A stretch of 40,113 bases of DNA from Erysipelotrichia bacterium (GTDB lineage: Bacteria; Bacillota_I; Bacilli_A; Erysipelotrichales; Erysipelotrichaceae). The stretch spans positions 1-40,113 of the forward strand of contig JAGXSD010000057.1 of assembly GCA_018333955.1 (NCBI GenBank), in the 5' to 3' direction. Positions 30,146 through 39,956 of this stretch are shown piece after piece. A program made the position numbers and the translations under genes. The first letter of the stretch is position 1; every line of letters starts with the position of its first letter. The notes under the pieces are model-generated. The model was not told the DNA's origin. It made no database searches and was given only the letters and a program-made list of their open reading frames with translations.

Positions 30146-30394
30146 TTAGTGTTTTGAGAAGCGTTGCAAAGGAAGGTAAAGAGGTTGAAATCCCTCAAAA
30201 AGGGTTCCATCATCATTAAAAATGATTTGATTGAGTAATCGTGATGGGTCTTTCTTCAAAATCTTTGCATACTTTATAAATTGATAGTCAAACTGATAAG
30301 AGTAATGAAGTTGTACTAAATCATTGAGAAACTCTAAAGCGTTAGCCAATGCAATAGCTTTGGTTTTTGAATCAAATTTCGAATAGGTTTTCAT
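30146..30394 (-). CDS. small hypothetical protein
   Basis: 82 residues, mostly helical by appearance (KAIALANALEFLNDLVQLHYS), no family recognised. ATG 30394 is chosen because GGAGG lies 9 nt upstream; an in-frame GTG five codons earlier overlaps that site. The gene begins about 30 nt after an intrinsic terminator and no separate promoter is evident, so it may depend on read-through from the riboswitch-controlled gene. Confidence 0.65.
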   Translation of the reverse strand: MKTYSKFDSKTKAIALANALEFLNDLVQLHYSYQFDYQFIKYAKILKKDPSRLLNQIIFNDDGTLFEGFQPLYLPLQRFSKH

Positions 30395-30423
30395 GCTGGG
30401 TACCTCCACTTTTAATGTAATGA

Positions 30424-30496: not shown

Positions 30497-30892
30497 TTAA
30501 ATCGAATTAAAAGATTTTTGGGCACATTCATCAATGATTTTGCATTGTTCTGGAGTGAGTGGGGTCATTTTTGAGTATCCAAGATGAAACAAGAGATGAT
30601 GTTTCATAAGGTTTCTATATCCAATATACTGTTCATCATGAATGGTATATAAATCATTCTCTACAGTAATGAACCCTTCTTGAATCAATGTTTGAATAAG
30701 ATGATTGGCTTGCCACTCTAAATTGAGATTATAGAGAATTCCTTTATAGAATCCCCATCCATAATTTCTTGACATAATGTAGAATGTGGTTAAGACATGG
30801 CGATAATGATAAGGTGGTGTTCTTTTGAGTTGGTAATGTTGTGGAATACAGCGATGTTGGTTTTCTAAGTGATTAAAGTTTCCTTGTGTCAT
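30497..30892 (-). CDS. hypothetical protein under SAM-I-clan riboswitch
   Basis: 131 residues with many aromatic and His residues (PPYHYRHVLTTFYIMSRNYG) and a helical C-terminus with TPLTPEQCKIIDECAQ. No family recognised. AAAGGAG lies 5 nt before the ATG. It is the first full-length gene behind a SAM-type riboswitch and terminator, so it should be made when S-adenosylmethionine is low. Such control normally marks genes for methionine, cysteine or SAM metabolism or uptake, but nothing in the protein sequence shows this. Confidence 0.7.
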   Translation of the reverse strand: MTQGNFNHLENQHRCIPQHYQLKRTPPYHYRHVLTTFYIMSRNYGWGFYKGILYNLNLEWQANHLIQTLIQEGFITVENDLYTIHDEQYIGYRNLMKHHLLFHLGYSKMTPLTPEQCKIIDECAQKSFNSI

Positions 30893-30907
30893 AATTCTCC
30901 TTTTCTT

Positions 30908-30937
30908 TCACACTAGCGTCTTAAAGAATAGGAGCAT
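30908..30937 (-). CDS. 9-residue upstream ORF after the riboswitch terminator
   Basis: ATG with a very strong site (GAAAGGAGG, 6 nt upstream) opens the peptide MLLFFKTLV, which ends 15 nt before the start of the 131-residue gene. It may set up translational coupling or be a decoy site. Short frames this size arise by chance, but the strong site does not look accidental. Confidence 0.35.
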   Translation of the reverse strand: MLLFFKTLV

Positions 30938-30949
30938 ATATAACCTCCT

Positions 30950-30981
30950 TTCAAAAATAAAAACACCAAAATAGGTGTTTC
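30950..30981 (-). terminator. riboswitch terminator
   Basis: On the minus strand AAACACC-TATTTT-GGTGTTT is followed by TTATTTTTG. Its 5' arm ACACCTAT can instead pair with ATAGGT in the 3' strand of the aptamer P1 helix, the classic switch between termination and antitermination. Confidence 0.8.
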
Positions 30982-31085
30982 TAAGTTCGACCTATCCTTC
31001 AAGGATTAGCACCTTCCATGGTATGGGGTTGCTGTGGAGTCATAGAGCTTGTCTCTCGTCCACTCGTGATAGTGATATACTCTAA
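30982..31085 (-). promoter_or_regulatory. SAM-I-clan riboswitch, short or missing P4
   Basis: On the minus strand the aptamer starts with CTATCACGAG (P1 5' strand), then P2 GTGGA...TCCAC enclosing the kink-turn-like CTCTATGA. It continues with CAGCAACC, a P3 closed by GGTGCTAATCC, and the P1 3' strand GATAG in GAAGGATAGG. GCAACC and GGTGCTAAT are the conserved SAM-I core. Between the core and P1 only a few bases remain, so the P4 hairpin is missing or tiny, as in SAM-I/IV-variant RNAs. It controls the minus-strand genes of unknown function starting at 30892. Confidence 0.8.
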
Positions 31086-31282: not shown

Positions 31283-33187
31283 ATGCTCCAATTTAAAATA
31301 AAATTTATACAAATGAACAATTCAAATAAAGACTTTCAAAAATTAATGGAAGAGCTCAAAGTGGCGATACTTTATAGTCTCGTGAAAAGTCATCCAAGAA
31401 GATTAGGATCAGATTATGTCAGAATTCTAATAATGCGAGGTTTCATTAATGTTGAGAAGAAAAATATCAACAAAATACTTTATGATAACAAACATATTTT
31501 TAATCCGAATCTAAATGAAAAAAAAGTGCCTGCTTGGACAATCATTGATGAAAACGAAAATAATAAAAATGCAAATCCTTCTAAGCACAATAAAATAGAT
31601 GAGGTCTTAAAGAAGGCTATATCTCTCAGCAAAATCAATGAAGTAATCGCCAACAAATGGATTAACAATGATTATAAAGGTACAGCAAATGTATATTTCA
31701 AAAAAACATCTAGAAGTTTGATTCTATACTTAGTACTCCAATCTTTACAGAAAGTAAAAGTAACATATATTTACTTTGAAAGAAAAGAAACGAGTATTGC
31801 TTTTGAGAAGTTATTCACACAGTTTGTTAAAGATAATGAACTTGATGTTGCTTTATTGAAGTTTCATGAAGTAAAAAAACTTAGTTCAAAGTTTGTTTGT
31901 ATACTCAATAACCTAAATGAAATTAGTAAAATCAAAGATAAAGAATTTTCCGGACTTATTTCCTTCACTTCTTCAAGAAACAATTATGATTTGTCGAAAT
32001 TCAAATCCTATTTGCACATTAAACAATTGAGTTTCACACTTGATACTTCTGATACAGATGATGATTTGATCTTTGAGTACCAATTTATTGATTATTTGAA
32101 AGATGAAAACAAATACTCGTTTAATTGTCTTTTCTTCGATTACTCGAAAATTGAAAGAAAAGACTACTCGGTAACCTGTATTAACTTAATTGAAATGGGT
32201 TGTATAAAAAGTAATACGGATTGGTTCGACTTTTGGCTAGAAATTGAAAATGAAGAAAAGAGAAATTTAAAGACAAACCGAGCTTTGACTTACTATAAAA
32301 ATCAGTATACTAAGATAATTAATAACCAGATAAAGTTTGATTTTCTAATTAATTACTTATCAAAGAATAAAATAGCCGATCAAATCCTTATATATAATGA
32401 AAGTGCAGTTCAAGTCTTACTATTAATTGATGAGTTAGTTTCTTTAGGTCTGAACTATGAACTCTTTTCTAAAAAGGAGGATTTACAAGCTTATCATCTA
32501 AATGGTAATATAAATTCCCTTATTACAATCATTGATGAATCTGTAATTGAATCTAAAATAACTATTCAACCAACAGAGAATATCTTTGTATTTGGTATGT
32601 TAGGTAGTTCTAAAAAACTAATGACGTTGATTTCATTTTTAGACAATAATCCTAATCAAAAGCAAGCAAATATTAATCTACTCCTCACGAATAACACTTT
32701 TGATGATTTTAGAATTTATCCTCAATCATACAATTCATTAAGAGACCTGTTACTATCAAATTATGAAAAGCAAGATAATAGTTCAACGACTGAGAAAGAA
32801 ATAAATGAAAATGACTATTCCACTAGATATTCTAATGAACTAATGATAATTGGTTCTATATCAAACCTTAGTGATAAACATTATCAATTGCTTAGGAAAT
32901 CTTTACATTCAAATATCAAGAATATTGTTTTCTTAAATGTTGATAAATTAGAATTTGCTGAAATTATTAATGAGATATTTAACTTGAACTCAAAGTATAT
33001 TTACTTCCAACATGATTTTTCTGATACAGAAATCAATCATCTTGGCTCAAAACTTTTCTATGAACAAAATCAACGTTATATTCGACTTGAAAAGTCAAGA
33101 TCATTTTCGATTGCACATATTCTCTCGTTTATTGTCGAAATAAGCAATCAATTTAAGGAAACTCATGAAGTTAATAATAAGTCGTAA
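31283..33187 (+). CDS. degenerate SF2-helicase-like protein, first gene of putative defence operon
   Basis: 634 residues, no recognised family. Residues about 10-75 look like a winged-helix region (LVKSHPRRLGSDYVRILIMRG). At about 124-155 the stretch IANKWINNDYKGTANVYFKK fits the pattern found at motif I of DEAD/DEAH helicases (W-x-x-x-x-K-G-x-x), but the Walker A Gly-Lys-Thr is replaced by FKKTS. A DExH box is not visible either. A second Rossmann-like half (about 360-480, with QILIYNESAVQVLLLIDELV) resembles a helicase C-terminal domain. It may be an inactive scaffold or DNA-binding partner (inference). An alternative start is ATG 31313; neither start has a good site. It overlaps the next gene by 23 nt. 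Confidence 0.75.
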   Translation: MLQFKIKFIQMNNSNKDFQKLMEELKVAILYSLVKSHPRRLGSDYVRILIMRGFINVEKKNINKILYDNKHIFNPNLNEKKVPAWTIIDENENNKNANPSKHNKIDEVLKKAISLSKINEVIANKWINNDYKGTANVYFKKTSRSLILYLVLQSLQKVKVTYIYFERKETSIAFEKLFTQFVKDNELDVALLKFHEVKKLSSKFVCILNNLNEISKIKDKEFSGLISFTSSRNNYDLSKFKSYLHIKQLSFTLDTSDTDDDLIFEYQFIDYLKDENKYSFNCLFFDYSKIERKDYSVTCINLIEMGCIKSNTDWFDFWLEIENEEKRNLKTNRALTYYKNQYTKIINNQIKFDFLINYLSKNKIADQILIYNESAVQVLLLIDELVSLGLNYELFSKKEDLQAYHLNGNINSLITIIDESVIESKITIQPTENIFVFGMLGSSKKLMTLISFLDNNPNQKQANINLLLTNNTFDDFRIYPQSYNSLRDLLLSNYEKQDNSSTTEKEINENDYSTRYSNELMIIGSISNLSDKHYQLLRKSLHSNIKNIVFLNVDKLEFAEIINEIFNLNSKYIYFQHDFSDTEINHLGSKLFYEQNQRYIRLEKSRSFSIAHILSFIVEISNQFKETHEVNNKS

Positions 33188-35438
33188 TTTCGAAAAAAAG
33201 TTAAAGAAGTTCAATCAATCCCAAGATAATTGGTATGATTTTTTTAATGAACTTTCAAAACTTACATTTCATGATATTTATAATCAAAAGAAATATGGTG
33301 TAAAAAAATACAAAGGCAATAGTGACATTCCAATCTATGGAATAGATTTCAATATCAGGAGTGCAGAAAGAATCATCGCTACTGTTCTTGGTCAATATAC
33401 AAAAGAAAAACAAGAACAGTTTAAAGTTAAAACTGGCTTAGAAACAGTTGATGTCTTAATTTTGCATGATATATCTGAACACGATTCTCAAAATGATTCG
33501 GTTTTAAACATAAGTAAAAATGATTTGAATATAGACGATCTACTGCCCTTTATCAGTAATTCTGTCCAACTTAATGATTTATATTCTTATTTGACAGGAA
33601 GAAAAATATCAAAAATACTTAGCGAAGACAAGAATGAAATTGTTCGAACCTTTGTCACTAGCAACACAGCACCAACAATACTTCAAGGCATTGCTGGAAG
33701 TGGTAAAACTGAAGTATTAAAAGGGATTTTATCAGAATGGAATATTCATTATCCAGATAGTAAAATTTTATTTCTAACTTCCTCAATGAGGTTAATTGAA
33801 GAAATAATTAGAGAAATGAATCTTAATAATCCAAATATTGATATAACCACTCTTGCTTCATTGATAAACAATCTGAATAATCAAACGCGAACTCCTCTAT
33901 CTTTACCTCAATTTAAAGCATTTTTAAGTAATGGTTCAATTAATGATTACAATATTTCAAATAGTATTATCAATATTTCAAATAAACACGGAATCAAAAA
34001 AGTGTTTGCTGAAATCACTGCAGTTATTTTTGGGAAAGCAAATCCTTCGATAAATGATGTTTTATCTAGAAACGAATATTCAAATAGCATTAATCAATCA
34101 AGTATTGATCTTAATGAAAAAGAAAAAGAAGTGATCTTCAACATTGCATATTTATTTATCAAATATTACGAAAAATCATATATGGAGCTTAGTTATGAAT
34201 GTAATAAACTTCTTAAAAAAGGAACTAGTACATATGATTTAGTTCTAGTTGATGAAGTACAAGATTATACAGAAATACAGTTCATGTTTATTTATAGTTT
34301 AGTTAAGAATAAACAGAATATTTTCATCTCAGGTGACATAAATCAAACAATTAATCCTACATTGTTTAAATTCGGAAATATAACAAAATTATTACATCAT
34401 AAAGGGAAAAACTGGATACCGGCAGGACCATTAATTAGCAACTATCGAAATTCATCTGAAGTAACTCAACTTATTAATATCTTGAATGAACTAAGAAATG
34501 AGAAACTTCCGACAAGAAAACAAATTCACAGTCAAAACGAGCATAACATGAGCCATGAAAATGGAAGGATTTACTTATATTATGGTGATGTAAATGAAGA
34601 TAATCCACTTTTCAGCAATTCTAAACTTAATATCATAAAGTCTGAACTTTCAAATTTCAATCCCAATATTTCTTTAACAGTGCATGATATAAAAGGTCTA
34701 GAATTTGAATACGTCGCAACGATAGATATAATATCTGATTACTGCGATCTGCTAGATGAGATTTTTGAGGAATCATATAAAAAGAATGAATCAATGCATT
34801 ATTTCTTCAATTTGTTTTATGTTGCAATAAGTCGTGTAATGAAAAACTTAGTTATTATTGAATCTAAACCAAGTAAACTACTCGATTATATTAGGTCTAA
34901 ACTTAACCAAGCTTTTATTCTTACAGAAGTAACATCATTAGAAAAGATTGATATTGAAGGGGAAGAATCACTTGATAATCTATTCTATAACGGTATAGAA
35001 TCAATCAAGACGCAACACTTCCAAGTGGCTAGGAGAAACTTTAGTCTTATTAAAAACAGGTTTGAAAAATATCCTCACGTTGAAGATTTATTAGTTTTCA
35101 TTAATATGTGTGAGGAAAACCAACCTTACGTGAATATTGCTGATTACTGCTTTACTTGTGGTTTATACAATCTTGCATCAATTTATTATAAACAAGCAAA
35201 TAAAAAGATTGAGCAATGTATCATGGTCTTCCTTCAAGATCAAAATCATGAACTTGAAATACTACTCGAAACATATCAATTAGATTTCATTGATTTATCA
35301 TATTGTGGATCATTGCCTGCTTGGATAAGCGATCTAGTTGAACTAGCTTTAGAAGAACAATTAGATTTAGTACAACTAAATTTTGAAGACATTGACTTAA
35401 AAATACTGTCATTGAAGGAGGTAAACAATGGAAGGTAA
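33165..35438 (+). CDS. SF1 (UvrD-like) helicase with N-terminal RelE-like domain
   Basis: 757 residues. Residues 1-105 resemble a RelE/ParE-type toxin fold (ISRNFEKKLKKF, then IYGIDFNIRSAERIIATV and VDVLILHDISEHD). The helicase core has Walker A GIAGSGKT (about 175-182), Walker B LVDEVQD (about 361-367), a GDINQTINP motif III-like stretch, SNYRNS (about 424), VHDIKGLEFE (motif V region, about 505) and FYVAISR (motif VI, about 551). From about 600 on, TPR-like helices follow; no nuclease domain is seen. AAGGA precedes the ATG. Middle gene of a coupled three-gene operon. Anti-phage defence is a reasonable but unproven role. Confidence 0.85.
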   Translation: MKLIISRNFEKKLKKFNQSQDNWYDFFNELSKLTFHDIYNQKKYGVKKYKGNSDIPIYGIDFNIRSAERIIATVLGQYTKEKQEQFKVKTGLETVDVLILHDISEHDSQNDSVLNISKNDLNIDDLLPFISNSVQLNDLYSYLTGRKISKILSEDKNEIVRTFVTSNTAPTILQGIAGSGKTEVLKGILSEWNIHYPDSKILFLTSSMRLIEEIIREMNLNNPNIDITTLASLINNLNNQTRTPLSLPQFKAFLSNGSINDYNISNSIINISNKHGIKKVFAEITAVIFGKANPSINDVLSRNEYSNSINQSSIDLNEKEKEVIFNIAYLFIKYYEKSYMELSYECNKLLKKGTSTYDLVLVDEVQDYTEIQFMFIYSLVKNKQNIFISGDINQTINPTLFKFGNITKLLHHKGKNWIPAGPLISNYRNSSEVTQLINILNELRNEKLPTRKQIHSQNEHNMSHENGRIYLYYGDVNEDNPLFSNSKLNIIKSELSNFNPNISLTVHDIKGLEFEYVATIDIISDYCDLLDEIFEESYKKNESMHYFFNLFYVAISRVMKNLVIIESKPSKLLDYIRSKLNQAFILTEVTSLEKIDIEGEESLDNLFYNGIESIKTQHFQVARRNFSLIKNRFEKYPHVEDLLVFINMCEENQPYVNIADYCFTCGLYNLASIYYKQANKKIEQCIMVFLQDQNHELEILLETYQLDFIDLSYCGSLPAWISDLVELALEEQLDLVQLNFEDIDLKILSLKEVNNGR

Positions 35439-35742
35439 AAGTAAAGTTATTGAGAAATTAATACAAAGTCAAAATGCAACAATTGAAGATTTAAGTAAAC
35501 TCGCAAATTCTTTTGAGAAACTTAACACAACAATCAACAGTCTCAAGGATTCTATTATTAGTGAAGATATATTGAGTTCAATAGTTGAAAAGTTATCCAA
35601 GCTTGAAGAAATCAGTATGAAAATTAACGAAATTGAAGAAAGGATGAGGATTCTTGATACCATCAGAGAAAGCATCGATAGAGTTGAAGATATAAGTGAG
35701 AAATTGACACAACCCATCGAATCTGCAAATTCAAAGGAATAA
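35428..35742 (+). CDS. small coiled-coil protein of the helicase operon
   Basis: 104 residues, almost entirely heptad-like and charged (IEKLIQSQNATIEDLSKLA; KLEEISMKINEIEERMRIL). No family recognised. AAGGAGG lies 6 nt before the ATG, and the gene overlaps the helicase gene by 11 nt, so it is a real third member of the operon. Its length and coiled-coil form suggest an oligomerisation or adaptor subunit, or an antitoxin for the RelE-like domain (inference). Confidence 0.75.
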   Translation: MEGKSKVIEKLIQSQNATIEDLSKLANSFEKLNTTINSLKDSIISEDILSSIVEKLSKLEEISMKINEIEERMRILDTIRESIDRVEDISEKLTQPIESANSKE

Positions 35743-37315: not shown

Positions 37316-38005
37316 TTAACTTAAATCGAACTCTATCTCTATATACTCGTCATCATGATTTTCATTGAAAAAATATCTGAATAAATTCTCATATGATTTT
37401 GCCCCAATAGAATTTACACTTAGCAATTCTCTAAATCGGGTGATTGGTCTACTGTCATTTAGCTTCATAATTTGCTTTTTAGTTAGATTGATTTTTTTGC
37501 ATGTGTTTTCTAGATTAATTTTATTAAATGCGGTTACCATATCTAATTCTTTACCACTTGCTTTTTTATCCTCGTCTAAACAAATAATAACCTCCAATTC
37601 AATATCATTTAAATACATCTCCATTAATCTTTTTACATCTATCCAATCCAACTCACCGTTGCCCACCCCTAATTTGGGAAAGGCAACTCTATTGATATTT
37701 AATGTTTTGTAGGTATCTAGAAAATCAATCAATCCATATTCTATCCATTTTAATTCTGACGGGTAACGAAAATCATATTTCGTCGGAAAATTAACAATTA
37801 TTTCTTGATTAGTAGACCAATAATCAACTTTTCCGAGTTTAATAAACTTTTTAAGGCATTTTTCTTTATATTCTTCAAACATCTCAGGATATCTTAACTT
37901 ATACTCAAGTGCTATACCTGCTCCCATCACCCCTAAGCAATTTACGGTATTTACTCTTGCATCACATTCAACATTAAATACTGTACCCGTTGAATATTTA
38001 ATCAT
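37316..38005 (-). CDS. darG: DarG-like macrodomain protein, putative antitoxin
   Basis: 229 residues. Residues 1-150 form a macrodomain of the DarG type: VNTVNCLGVMGAGIALEYKL (ADP-ribose binding), VNFPTKYDFRYPSE, and FPKLGVGNGELDWIDV. DarG enzymes remove ADP-ribose from DNA bases and so neutralise DarT. The C-terminal 80 residues are helical and differ from the longer domain of classical DarG. The gene overlaps the end of the darT-like gene by 8 nt, so both proteins are made together. Confidence 0.87.
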   Translation of the reverse strand: MIKYSTGTVFNVECDARVNTVNCLGVMGAGIALEYKLRYPEMFEEYKEKCLKKFIKLGKVDYWSTNQEIIVNFPTKYDFRYPSELKWIEYGLIDFLDTYKTLNINRVAFPKLGVGNGELDWIDVKRLMEMYLNDIELEVIICLDEDKKASGKELDMVTAFNKINLENTCKKINLTKKQIMKLNDSRPITRFRELLSVNSIGAKSYENLFRYFFNENHDDEYIEIEFDLS

Positions 38006-39956
38006 TGTCTTTCCTCCAAATCAACCATTTAATTTTCTCTATTTCAATTTCAATTGAGTATATCTTCTCGAATATATCAATATCAATCCTACCATAAAAA
38101 TCAAACTTTTCCATAGATTCGGGAATTGGTTGCATTGAAACTAATGAGTTATTGTTATTTTGTCTAATGTTTTCTGTCAAGCAAATACCTGAAGCAAATG
38201 TAATTAAAATATTATGATTAAAATCTTCTAAAAAACGATAAAACATTAAGCCAACAAAAGCACTGTCCTTTTTTACTTCAATTTTAAAGTCGTAAAGATA
38301 GTCACAATCCACTCGATTATTGAATGAACTATTATCAACAATAGAAGTTATTTGCAAACTTGCATCTTTTATGAGTTCAAACATCTTTAACTCTGCGGGG
38401 GATCTAAATATTAGTTTGTTCATTTTATCGATAGAAACACTATCATAAATTAAGAACTCAGAATTCTTCTTACTAGTCAATAGTCTACCATCATTAATAT
38501 TAAAAACTTCAGTTAAATCGTTATTCCCGTTAGGGACAGGACCTTTATAAAATATTAGCTCCCAAGGGAAATTTAACGCAACTTGAGCTGATTTCGTCGA
38601 TCTAGATCTTGAGTTTGCAGCACCACCATTATAGAAAAGCTTATTTGGATGATAGATTAGAGATTCATCGAAAATGAGCAACACTGGTATTGGCATATGA
38701 GGTTCATCCATAGTCTTTTTAACACCTTCATTGGCATAAAGAGTTGGTGTTTTGTCTCTGTAGAAAAAACGAACACTGTTTAAAATAACATCTGGTGTAT
38801 TCCTAATGATTTCCTTGTCTGCTGCATCAACAACGATATATCTCTTGGCATTATGCCTTGAAAACAATTTTTTATGAAAAAATATCGAGTTCAAATTCAA
38901 AATGTCAGTACAATGAATAAAACCTCGAAATGAATAATTGCTTTTAAGTGTATTTAAAAGCAAATCTTCATAATAATATTTCTTACTGTTAAATCTTAGT
39001 TCCTGTGATTCATTTAAATAGACTGCGAAACTATTTAGATCACTATGTTCGCCATCACGAATATAACTCCAAAACAGTTGAATCTCATCATTAGTTAACC
39101 ATGTATTCTCTAACCCAAATTTATCTGATTCAAATATTGATTTGATCGGTGTAGAGTTCATTGTGGAAAGTTTCTTTACCAGAAAAGAAACATTTAAATC
39201 TCCCGAATCATATTCATTTTGTTCAAATTGAATAAAATAACCATTTCTATTCGTTGTTTCCTTTAATAACTGTAATATTCTGATGTTTTCGGTGAAACTC
39301 GTGCACTTACTATTAAACAATTCATAATTATCATTCACAAGAAAATCTATCAATGCCTCTGATATCTCATGCCAATAGTTAAACAAATAGTGATAATAAA
39401 TAAAGCTCATGTTATATTCATTTACATCTTTAAGCATTTCGTAAAACACACCATCAAATAATTGGCTAGTTTTGAGTTTCTCAATTTTGCTTGATAATCT
39501 TCTGTCTAGTACACATAGTAACATTATATGAGTGATAATTATCGTTGAAGTTTCAGTTTTACCTAAGTGTTTAAAATAATACTTTGTGATTTTTTCTAGC
39601 AGCTCTTCAAGTATATTTTCAGTTGCCAAAGAATTAATTGATTTATATAACCTTTTAATCAGATTTATAGAACCAAATGCTACCTCTATTTCAATAGTAT
39701 CATTCGACTCTAAACTCGCTATTCTCTCTAAAAAAACGTCAGCACTTTCTGCCCTTAGTAATTCTGAATTGATTCCTAGATTATGAGTTAAAGCATCTAA
39801 TTTCTCGTTTTCAGAATCAACAAAGAAATCACTAACAGATATAATTTGATTTTCAATGAAAAATTCAAGCAAATTAATAGAGTTTGTAACGTTATAATTA
39901 AAAGGCAAATTGTAAAATGAAGTCGTCCACCCAATAGAATAAAAGAAAAGCACCAT
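37998..39956 (-). CDS. darT: DarT-like DNA ADP-ribosyltransferase with long N-terminal extension
   Basis: 652 residues. The DarT (DUF4433) domain lies at about 340-520: GFIHCTDILNLNSIF with the NAD-binding His, a VRFFYRDKTPTLY strand, and the catalytic Glu at about 500 in KKNSEFLIYDSVSI. DarT enzymes modify thymidine or guanosine in single-stranded DNA and act in phage defence. Known DarTs are about 200-230 residues, so the 340-residue helical N-terminus and 130-residue C-terminus are extra. The start ATG has no ribosome binding site and lies next to an IS30-type transposase gene, so the true N-terminus was probably lost. Confidence 0.83.
   Translation of the reverse strand: MVLFFYSIGWTTSFYNLPFNYNVTNSINLLEFFIENQIISVSDFFVDSENEKLDALTHNLGINSELLRAESADVFLERIASLESNDTIEIEVAFGSINLIKRLYKSINSLATENILEELLEKITKYYFKHLGKTETSTIIITHIMLLCVLDRRLSSKIEKLKTSQLFDGVFYEMLKDVNEYNMSFIYYHYLFNYWHEISEALIDFLVNDNYELFNSKCTSFTENIRILQLLKETTNRNGYFIQFEQNEYDSGDLNVSFLVKKLSTMNSTPIKSIFESDKFGLENTWLTNDEIQLFWSYIRDGEHSDLNSFAVYLNESQELRFNSKKYYYEDLLLNTLKSNYSFRGFIHCTDILNLNSIFFHKKLFSRHNAKRYIVVDAADKEIIRNTPDVILNSVRFFYRDKTPTLYANEGVKKTMDEPHMPIPVLLIFDESLIYHPNKLFYNGGAANSRSRSTKSAQVALNFPWELIFYKGPVPNGNNDLTEVFNINDGRLLTSKKNSEFLIYDSVSIDKMNKLIFRSPAELKMFELIKDASLQITSIVDNSSFNNRVDCDYLYDFKIEVKKDSAFVGLMFYRFLEDFNHNILITFASGICLTENIRQNNNNSLVSMQPIPESMEKFDFYGRIDIDIFEKIYSIEIEIEKIKWLIWRKDND

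Follow-up and report, generated by a model that had tools for sequence, protein, structure and literature searches.

SAM-I elements are among the best-studied RNA switches and are mostly found before methionine or SAM genes. The locus described here raises the question of what such an element controls when the gene behind it encodes a 131-aa protein that resembles neither. We analysed a 40,113-nt stretch of DNA from an Erysipelotrichia bacterium (contig JAGXSD010000057.1 of assembly GCA_018333955.1), which is called the window throughout, and compared it with related genomes. We propose, with a probability of about 0.8, that a SAM-OFF SAM-I riboswitch terminates transcription ahead of the gene for a small protein of a new family. 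The features of the window are collected in Table 1.

Table 1. Features of the window, numbered from its first base; G004 is the sister genome described in the text
Feature	Position	Strand	Basis or remark
SAM-I riboswitch aptamer without P4	30989..31075	(-)	cmscan RF00162, 61.5 bits, gathering cut-off 44.4
Pseudoknot strand in P2 loop, CAAG	31048..31051	(-)	pairs with 31003-31000
Pseudoknot strand in J3/4, CTTG	31000..31003	(-)	register covaries in family aptamers
Antiterminator 5' strand AGGATAGGT, which overlaps the 3' strand of P1	30990..30998	(-)	minimum-energy fold
Antiterminator 3' strand ACCTATTTT, which overlaps the 5' arm of the terminator	30968..30976	(-)	minimum-energy fold
Intrinsic terminator: stem of 10 pairs, then a T run	30958..30983	(-)	counterpart TGCACCTATTTTAGGTGCATTTTATTTT in G004
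9-codon leader ORF, MLLFFKTLV and stop, with its own strong Shine-Dalgarno	30908..30937	(-)	sequence
131-aa protein on a divergent branch of the SAM-I-associated family	30497..30892	(-)	51% orthologue, same riboswitch
87-aa protein, second gene, conserved	30146..30409	(-)	51% identity in G004; no Pfam match
634-aa protein (no Pfam match), 757-aa UvrD-like helicase and 104-aa ORF	31283-35742	(+)	
Macro-domain protein (PF01661, 2e-10)	37316-38005	(-)	DarTG-like pair with the DarT protein
652-aa protein, DarT domain at residues 348-529 (PF14487, 1.8e-11), long toxin gene	37998-39956	(-)	
T-box leader	15978-15747	(-)	117.3 bits
tmRNA gene, cut by the window edge	306-1	(-)	

The original prediction had recognized a SAM-I core with P1 and P2 and had described P4 as missing or minimal, naming RF00162 and RF01725 as the covariance models to be compared. 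From the covariance scan, we observed that RF00162 matches at 17 bits over its gathering cut-off (E 5e-12 in a scan of the whole window, 1.1e-13 in a 900-nt stretch), and that this aptamer is the sole RF00162 match of the Erysipelotrichaceae-type genome of 1.81 Mb, estimated to be 99% complete. The RF00162 alignment shows the core GCAACC...GGTGCTAA, P1 (CTATC/GATAG), P3 and a P2 that contains the kink-turn GA...TGA, whereas P4 is absent and represented by 17 gaps; only a few bases separate the pseudoknot strand from the 3' strand of P1. We also identified a feature that had not been predicted, the pseudoknot CAAG/CTTG, which consists of four Watson-Crick pairs in the canonical SAM-I register. 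Judged by its sequence, the element is a SAM-I class riboswitch in a variant form without P4. It has in common with the SAM-I (S-box, RF00162) elements the core, P1, a kink-turned P2, P3, the pseudoknot between L2 and J3/4 and the terminator exchange, but it lacks P4, and its target is a protein family of no known domain instead of methionine or SAM genes.

Other members of the clan were considered as well. SAM-I/IV (RF01725) belongs to the same clan as SAM-I; no RF01725 match was found at E ≤ 10 across the 1.81-Mb genome, and this identity was rejected. An identity with SAM-IV is not favoured either, as RF00162 scores best among the clan models both on the aptamer of the window and on that of the sister genome G004 (Erysipelotrichaceae bacterium UBA6182), which is placed in the same GTDB genus. 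SAM-IV (RF00634) is similar to the element in lacking P4 and in having a pseudoknot of the PK-1 type, but it differs in possessing P5, PK-2 and a four-nucleotide turn that replaces the six-nucleotide kink-turn, according to PMC6890682. By eye, the ACC of the P3 loop in the window could pair with the GGT of the P1 tail; this is impossible in G004, where the ACC is absent. The distribution of SAM-I and its kink-turn are treated in PMC2258182.

Is the absence of P4 peculiar to this gene? We searched 195 genomes of the Erysipelotrichaceae-type family, found SAM-I in 152 of them, and read the downstream gene at the first 149 of the sites listed. These sites precede metK (110), a component of an ECF transporter (8) or other genes (31). 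The last group includes G060 (metK with a slightly different motif), G068 (metK 1.6 kb further on) and G143 (contig end), and the remaining 28 aptamers, in 26 loci, have no metK within the downstream stretch examined. Judged from the length of the 3' part, P4 is absent in at least 122 of the 149 listed sites; by target, the lower bounds are 91 of 110 for metK, 8 of 8 for the ECF-type transporter and 23 of 31 for the others. Hence, the absence of P4 in the window was rightly predicted, but it is not special to the 131-aa gene, and since most sites of the family share it, we rejected the idea that it marks a new riboswitch class.

The rest of the fold behaves differently. Parsing of the pseudoknot succeeded for 147 of the 149 aptamers, and its canonical register, which we take to be that of the Thermoanaerobacter structure, pairs in 577 of 588 cells, while registers slid by one to four positions pair in 81-280 of the 588. 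When the 42 distinct pseudoknot combinations were shuffled, none of 2000 shuffles reached the observed 157/168. The G004 aptamer fell outside this parse owing to one P2 pair, and its loop and J3/4 still read CAAG/CTTG. Because P4 is missing from so many sites while the pseudoknot covaries, we concluded that the P4-less SAM-I is a trait of the family and that the remaining SAM-I fold is under selection. A lineage in which P4 is mostly absent and the pseudoknot retained is a natural experiment on what SAM-I needs in order to work. In the same survey, many aptamers were seen to carry CCAACC...GGTGG, where the P3 pair GC...GC is changed to CC...GG; this covarying swap in the core occurs mostly before metK.

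Downstream of the aptamer, the claimed exchange between a terminator and an antiterminator proved to be real. In the window, the 9-bp pairing of AGGATAGGT with ACCTATTTT is the minimum-energy fold prior to synthesis of the 3' strand of the terminator, and in G004 an equivalent antiterminator, again using the 3' strand of P1, is the best fold at the corresponding stage. The order on the minus strand is aptamer, terminator, a Shine-Dalgarno sequence with the 9-codon ORF, and then the 131-aa ORF, which has a separate ribosome-binding site. The Shine-Dalgarno-like GAAAGGAG is retained in G004; the 9-codon ORF is not conserved there. When SAM is ample, the aptamer would hold the 3' strand of P1, so that the terminator would form and transcription would stop before the 131-aa gene. 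When SAM is low, AGGATAGGT would pair with ACCTATTTT, the polymerase would read through and the 131-aa protein would be made. The parts of this mechanism were recognized by sequence and covariation, and we infer SAM binding and switching from the riboswitch class.

We compared the locus with its counterpart in G004, where the orthologue of the 131-aa protein (51% identity) is preceded by a P4-less SAM-I element of 62.8 bits. The two aptamers agree at 77 of 87 aligned bases (88.5% identity), where shuffled sequences reach at most 73.6%, whereas the similarity of the 150 nt upstream of the aptamer is at the level of the shuffles. The conservation of the aptamer is therefore not due to chance. 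Between the two coding sequences, dN is 0.44 and dS is 1.94. Clear orthologues of the gene are rare, being found in 2 of 272 genomes of the family. The 87-aa gene adjoins the 131-aa orthologue in G004 too; because a hairpin lies between the two ORFs in the window, their co-transcription is regarded only as a possibility. Farther along the window there are genes for DUF4332 and DUF937 proteins with look-alikes in G004 (the DUF4332 protein is 81% identical), and the locus is therefore syntenic. The original prediction had placed a 131-residue protein of unknown function, and perhaps two more unknowns, behind the riboswitch. The first of these stands, with no significant match in Pfam, PHROG or PDB sequences; of the other two, the 87-aa ORF is sustained by its conservation in G004, and the 136-aa ORF has no counterpart that we could find among the G004 ORFs.

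We then asked how far the association between the riboswitch and the protein extends. Two look-alike groups of small proteins stand behind SAM-I in other genomes, namely those of G162 and G184, which have tandem aptamers, and those of G063 and G105. A profile (A6) built from the proteins of the window, G004, G162 and G184 was run against 395 genomes of the class and, besides the window, had its sole match at E ≤ 0.001 in a genome of another bacterial family (G364, E 4.1e-4). An Rfam scan made after this protein match revealed a SAM-I element of 55.8 bits, 67 nt ahead of the ORF. In support of homology within the family, a comparison of A3 with G364 gave a probability of 80% (E 1.4e-5). A widened profile (A12), searched in 49 genomes of the second family (f14) and in a sample of the class, matched G502 (E 4.1e-10) and G651 (E 1.2e-9) in f14, and both have SAM-I above the cut-off, 60 and 62 nt upstream of the ORF, respectively. 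In total, nine members from six genera (window, G004, G162, G184, G063, G105, G364, G502 and G651) all have a SAM-I leader, four of them (G162, G184, G063 and G105) having been picked through that leader.

Among the relatives found by protein similarity, all four convincing ones (G004, G364, G502 and G651) carry the riboswitch, or four of five if G044 is counted. The G044 match comes from the class sample and is marginal (E 8.9e-4); its frame contains one stop, it overlaps an ORF that we take to be acylphosphatase-like and no riboswitch is present, and we treated it as false. Weak profile matches in G265, G086 and G068 (E 3e-4 to 6e-3) have no SAM-I at their loci, and in our reading the weaker matches of the earlier profiles are noise; the riboswitch scan covered these three loci and G044, with 8 + 3 further weak matches lying outside it. 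The window and G004 proteins form a divergent branch that lacks the N..W and LNL motifs of the family, and the direct comparison with this branch is weak (hhalign 35%, E 3.9e-4). When a profile of the seven other members was ranked against 5,569 ORF segments, which included loci gathered by earlier related searches, the window protein came first among the non-members (E 5.4e-4) and the G004 protein second (E 0.07), the next non-member being at 0.49.

These data indicate that a SAM-I riboswitch is very probably tied to a protein family that had not been described before. The search for homologues and their leaders that had been proposed thus turned up leaders upstream of the G004 orthologue and of the profile-found G364, G502 and G651. 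The prediction of a new SAM-repressed function is well supported in so far as it concerns regulation. Among the papers listed, we found no description of the 131-aa family and no paper on a SAM riboswitch in the Erysipelotrich- group; these searches covered open-licence papers, and hence neither result proves that such a description is absent from print. A SAM-I-tied family that occurs in two bacterial families and contains no known domain would mean that the response to SAM includes a player not recognized so far, and the riboswitch would name the inducing signal of this family ahead of any experiment.

Two further arrangements were noticed during the survey. Tandem SAM-I elements precede one small gene in G162 (L047, ~919-1167) and in G184 (L048), and P4 is absent from the first aptamer but present in the second. 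A separate family of small proteins (WFYLKD, 94-105 aa; L190, L195, L196, L204 and the remote L201) also lies directly behind SAM-I; its profile matched six genomes, five with SAM-I upstream, all five of which had been met via the riboswitch and four of which had built the profile, and a sixth, G092 (E 4.1e-5), without it. Common ancestry of the WFYLKD and 131-aa proteins is not supported (hhalign 0.1%).

What might the protein do? Its best Pfam match is the winged-helix domain HTH_45 (PF14947) at residues 52-84, with an E of 0.012 and 16.0 bits against a Pfam cut-off of 25.5. AlphaFold gave poor models (pLDDT 54 and 49), and a Foldseek search against the PDB gave nothing at E ≤ 0.001; the helix-helix-helix-strand-strand core in the poor model has a helix and strand order similar to that of HTH_45. 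The protein is thus like a winged helix in this weak match and in this order of elements, but it stays below the cut-off and has no structural match. The shared domain of the G364 protein is preceded by a zinc-ribbon-like part with CxxC pairs, whose best Pfam match (E 1.6e-4) narrowly misses the cut-off. These signs are weak but agree in direction. From the sequence and the models, we tentatively suggest, as the likeliest role though at less than even odds, that the protein may be a small nucleic-acid-binding regulator repressed by SAM. Such a regulator would act in trans and inform other genes that SAM is low. The metK of the window genome, which directly follows a speB-like gene that is presumably speB, has no Rfam match upstream and hence no riboswitch leader; because of this, a relay that acts in trans would be of use to this genome.

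The dominance of supply targets among the SAM-I sites, with at least 110 of the 149 listed ones before metK and 8 before the ECF transporter component, makes it conceivable that the protein is instead an unannotated enzyme or carrier of the methionine/SAM economy, such as a salvage enzyme or a transport accessory, and the SAM-OFF logic would suit supply genes. We consider this somewhat unlikely, since no enzyme or transporter domain reaches the Pfam cut-off in the proteins of the window, G162, G184, G063, G105, G502, G651 or G364 (zinc-ribbon scores only in the last), the best match of the window protein is to a winged helix, and the family proteins are small (110-130 aa). It would be very improbable that the riboswitch is a passenger, a metK leader that was duplicated or decayed and came to lie before a small gene by chance. 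SAM-I with metK is common in the family and the metK of the window genome is leaderless; however, the aptamer and the terminator exchange are kept in G004 while the upstream flank is not, and the same arrangement recurs in remote homologues of another bacterial family.

The neighbourhood of the gene brings phage defence into consideration. If infection lowered SAM, through SAM-degrading phage enzymes or SAM consumption, termination would be lifted and a defence or anti-defence factor would be made. Beyond the riboswitch, the window encodes a DarT protein, a macro-domain protein and the UvrD-like helicase, which is GajB-like in PADLOC (1.8e-20); the 634-aa, 757-aa and 104-aa genes possibly constitute an unknown defence operon. 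Upstream of the G162 gene there are DarT, a NADAR-DarT1 antitoxin (2.2e-85) and AbiH, restriction-type proteins are neighbours in G184, and in G003 the same spot is occupied by a D12 methyltransferase and a DndB-like protein, the riboswitch and the 131-aa gene being absent. PADLOC nevertheless revealed no clear enrichment when 27 non-met SAM-I sites were compared with control sites: strong matches occurred on both sides, with generic ATPase models first. The input comprised 238 of 263 ORFs at the non-met SAM-I sites, including the window, and 220 of 344 at the control sites, near-duplicate loci and some control loci being left out and the best 25 families listed per run. Moreover, the genes around the G502 and G651 members appear metabolic on inspection by eye, and no relative of the 131-aa protein was found in phage records, plasmid records or viral contigs, so that we rejected phages and plasmids as the source of the gene. 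Among the matches listed from the open-licence literature on SAM riboswitches and defence, no paper named 'SAM riboswitch'. A role in defence thus appears distinctly unlikely. A broader idea, also unlikely, is that the nine proteins may form a family of SAM-starvation effectors that relay low SAM, some of them standing beside phage-defence loci as an infection alarm.

Termination by SAM-I ahead of a small protein gene remains our preferred reading of the window. Other targets were also seen in the survey. In L194 (G186:C242), SAM-I lies directly before a sigma-70-type gene (Sigma70_r2, 7.6e-17), with an unusually long match of 119 nt. In L192 (G119:C9), it precedes a gene resembling isocitrate/isopropylmalate dehydrogenases, and the downstream gene set contains one match each to Iso_dh (9e-101) and Aconitase.
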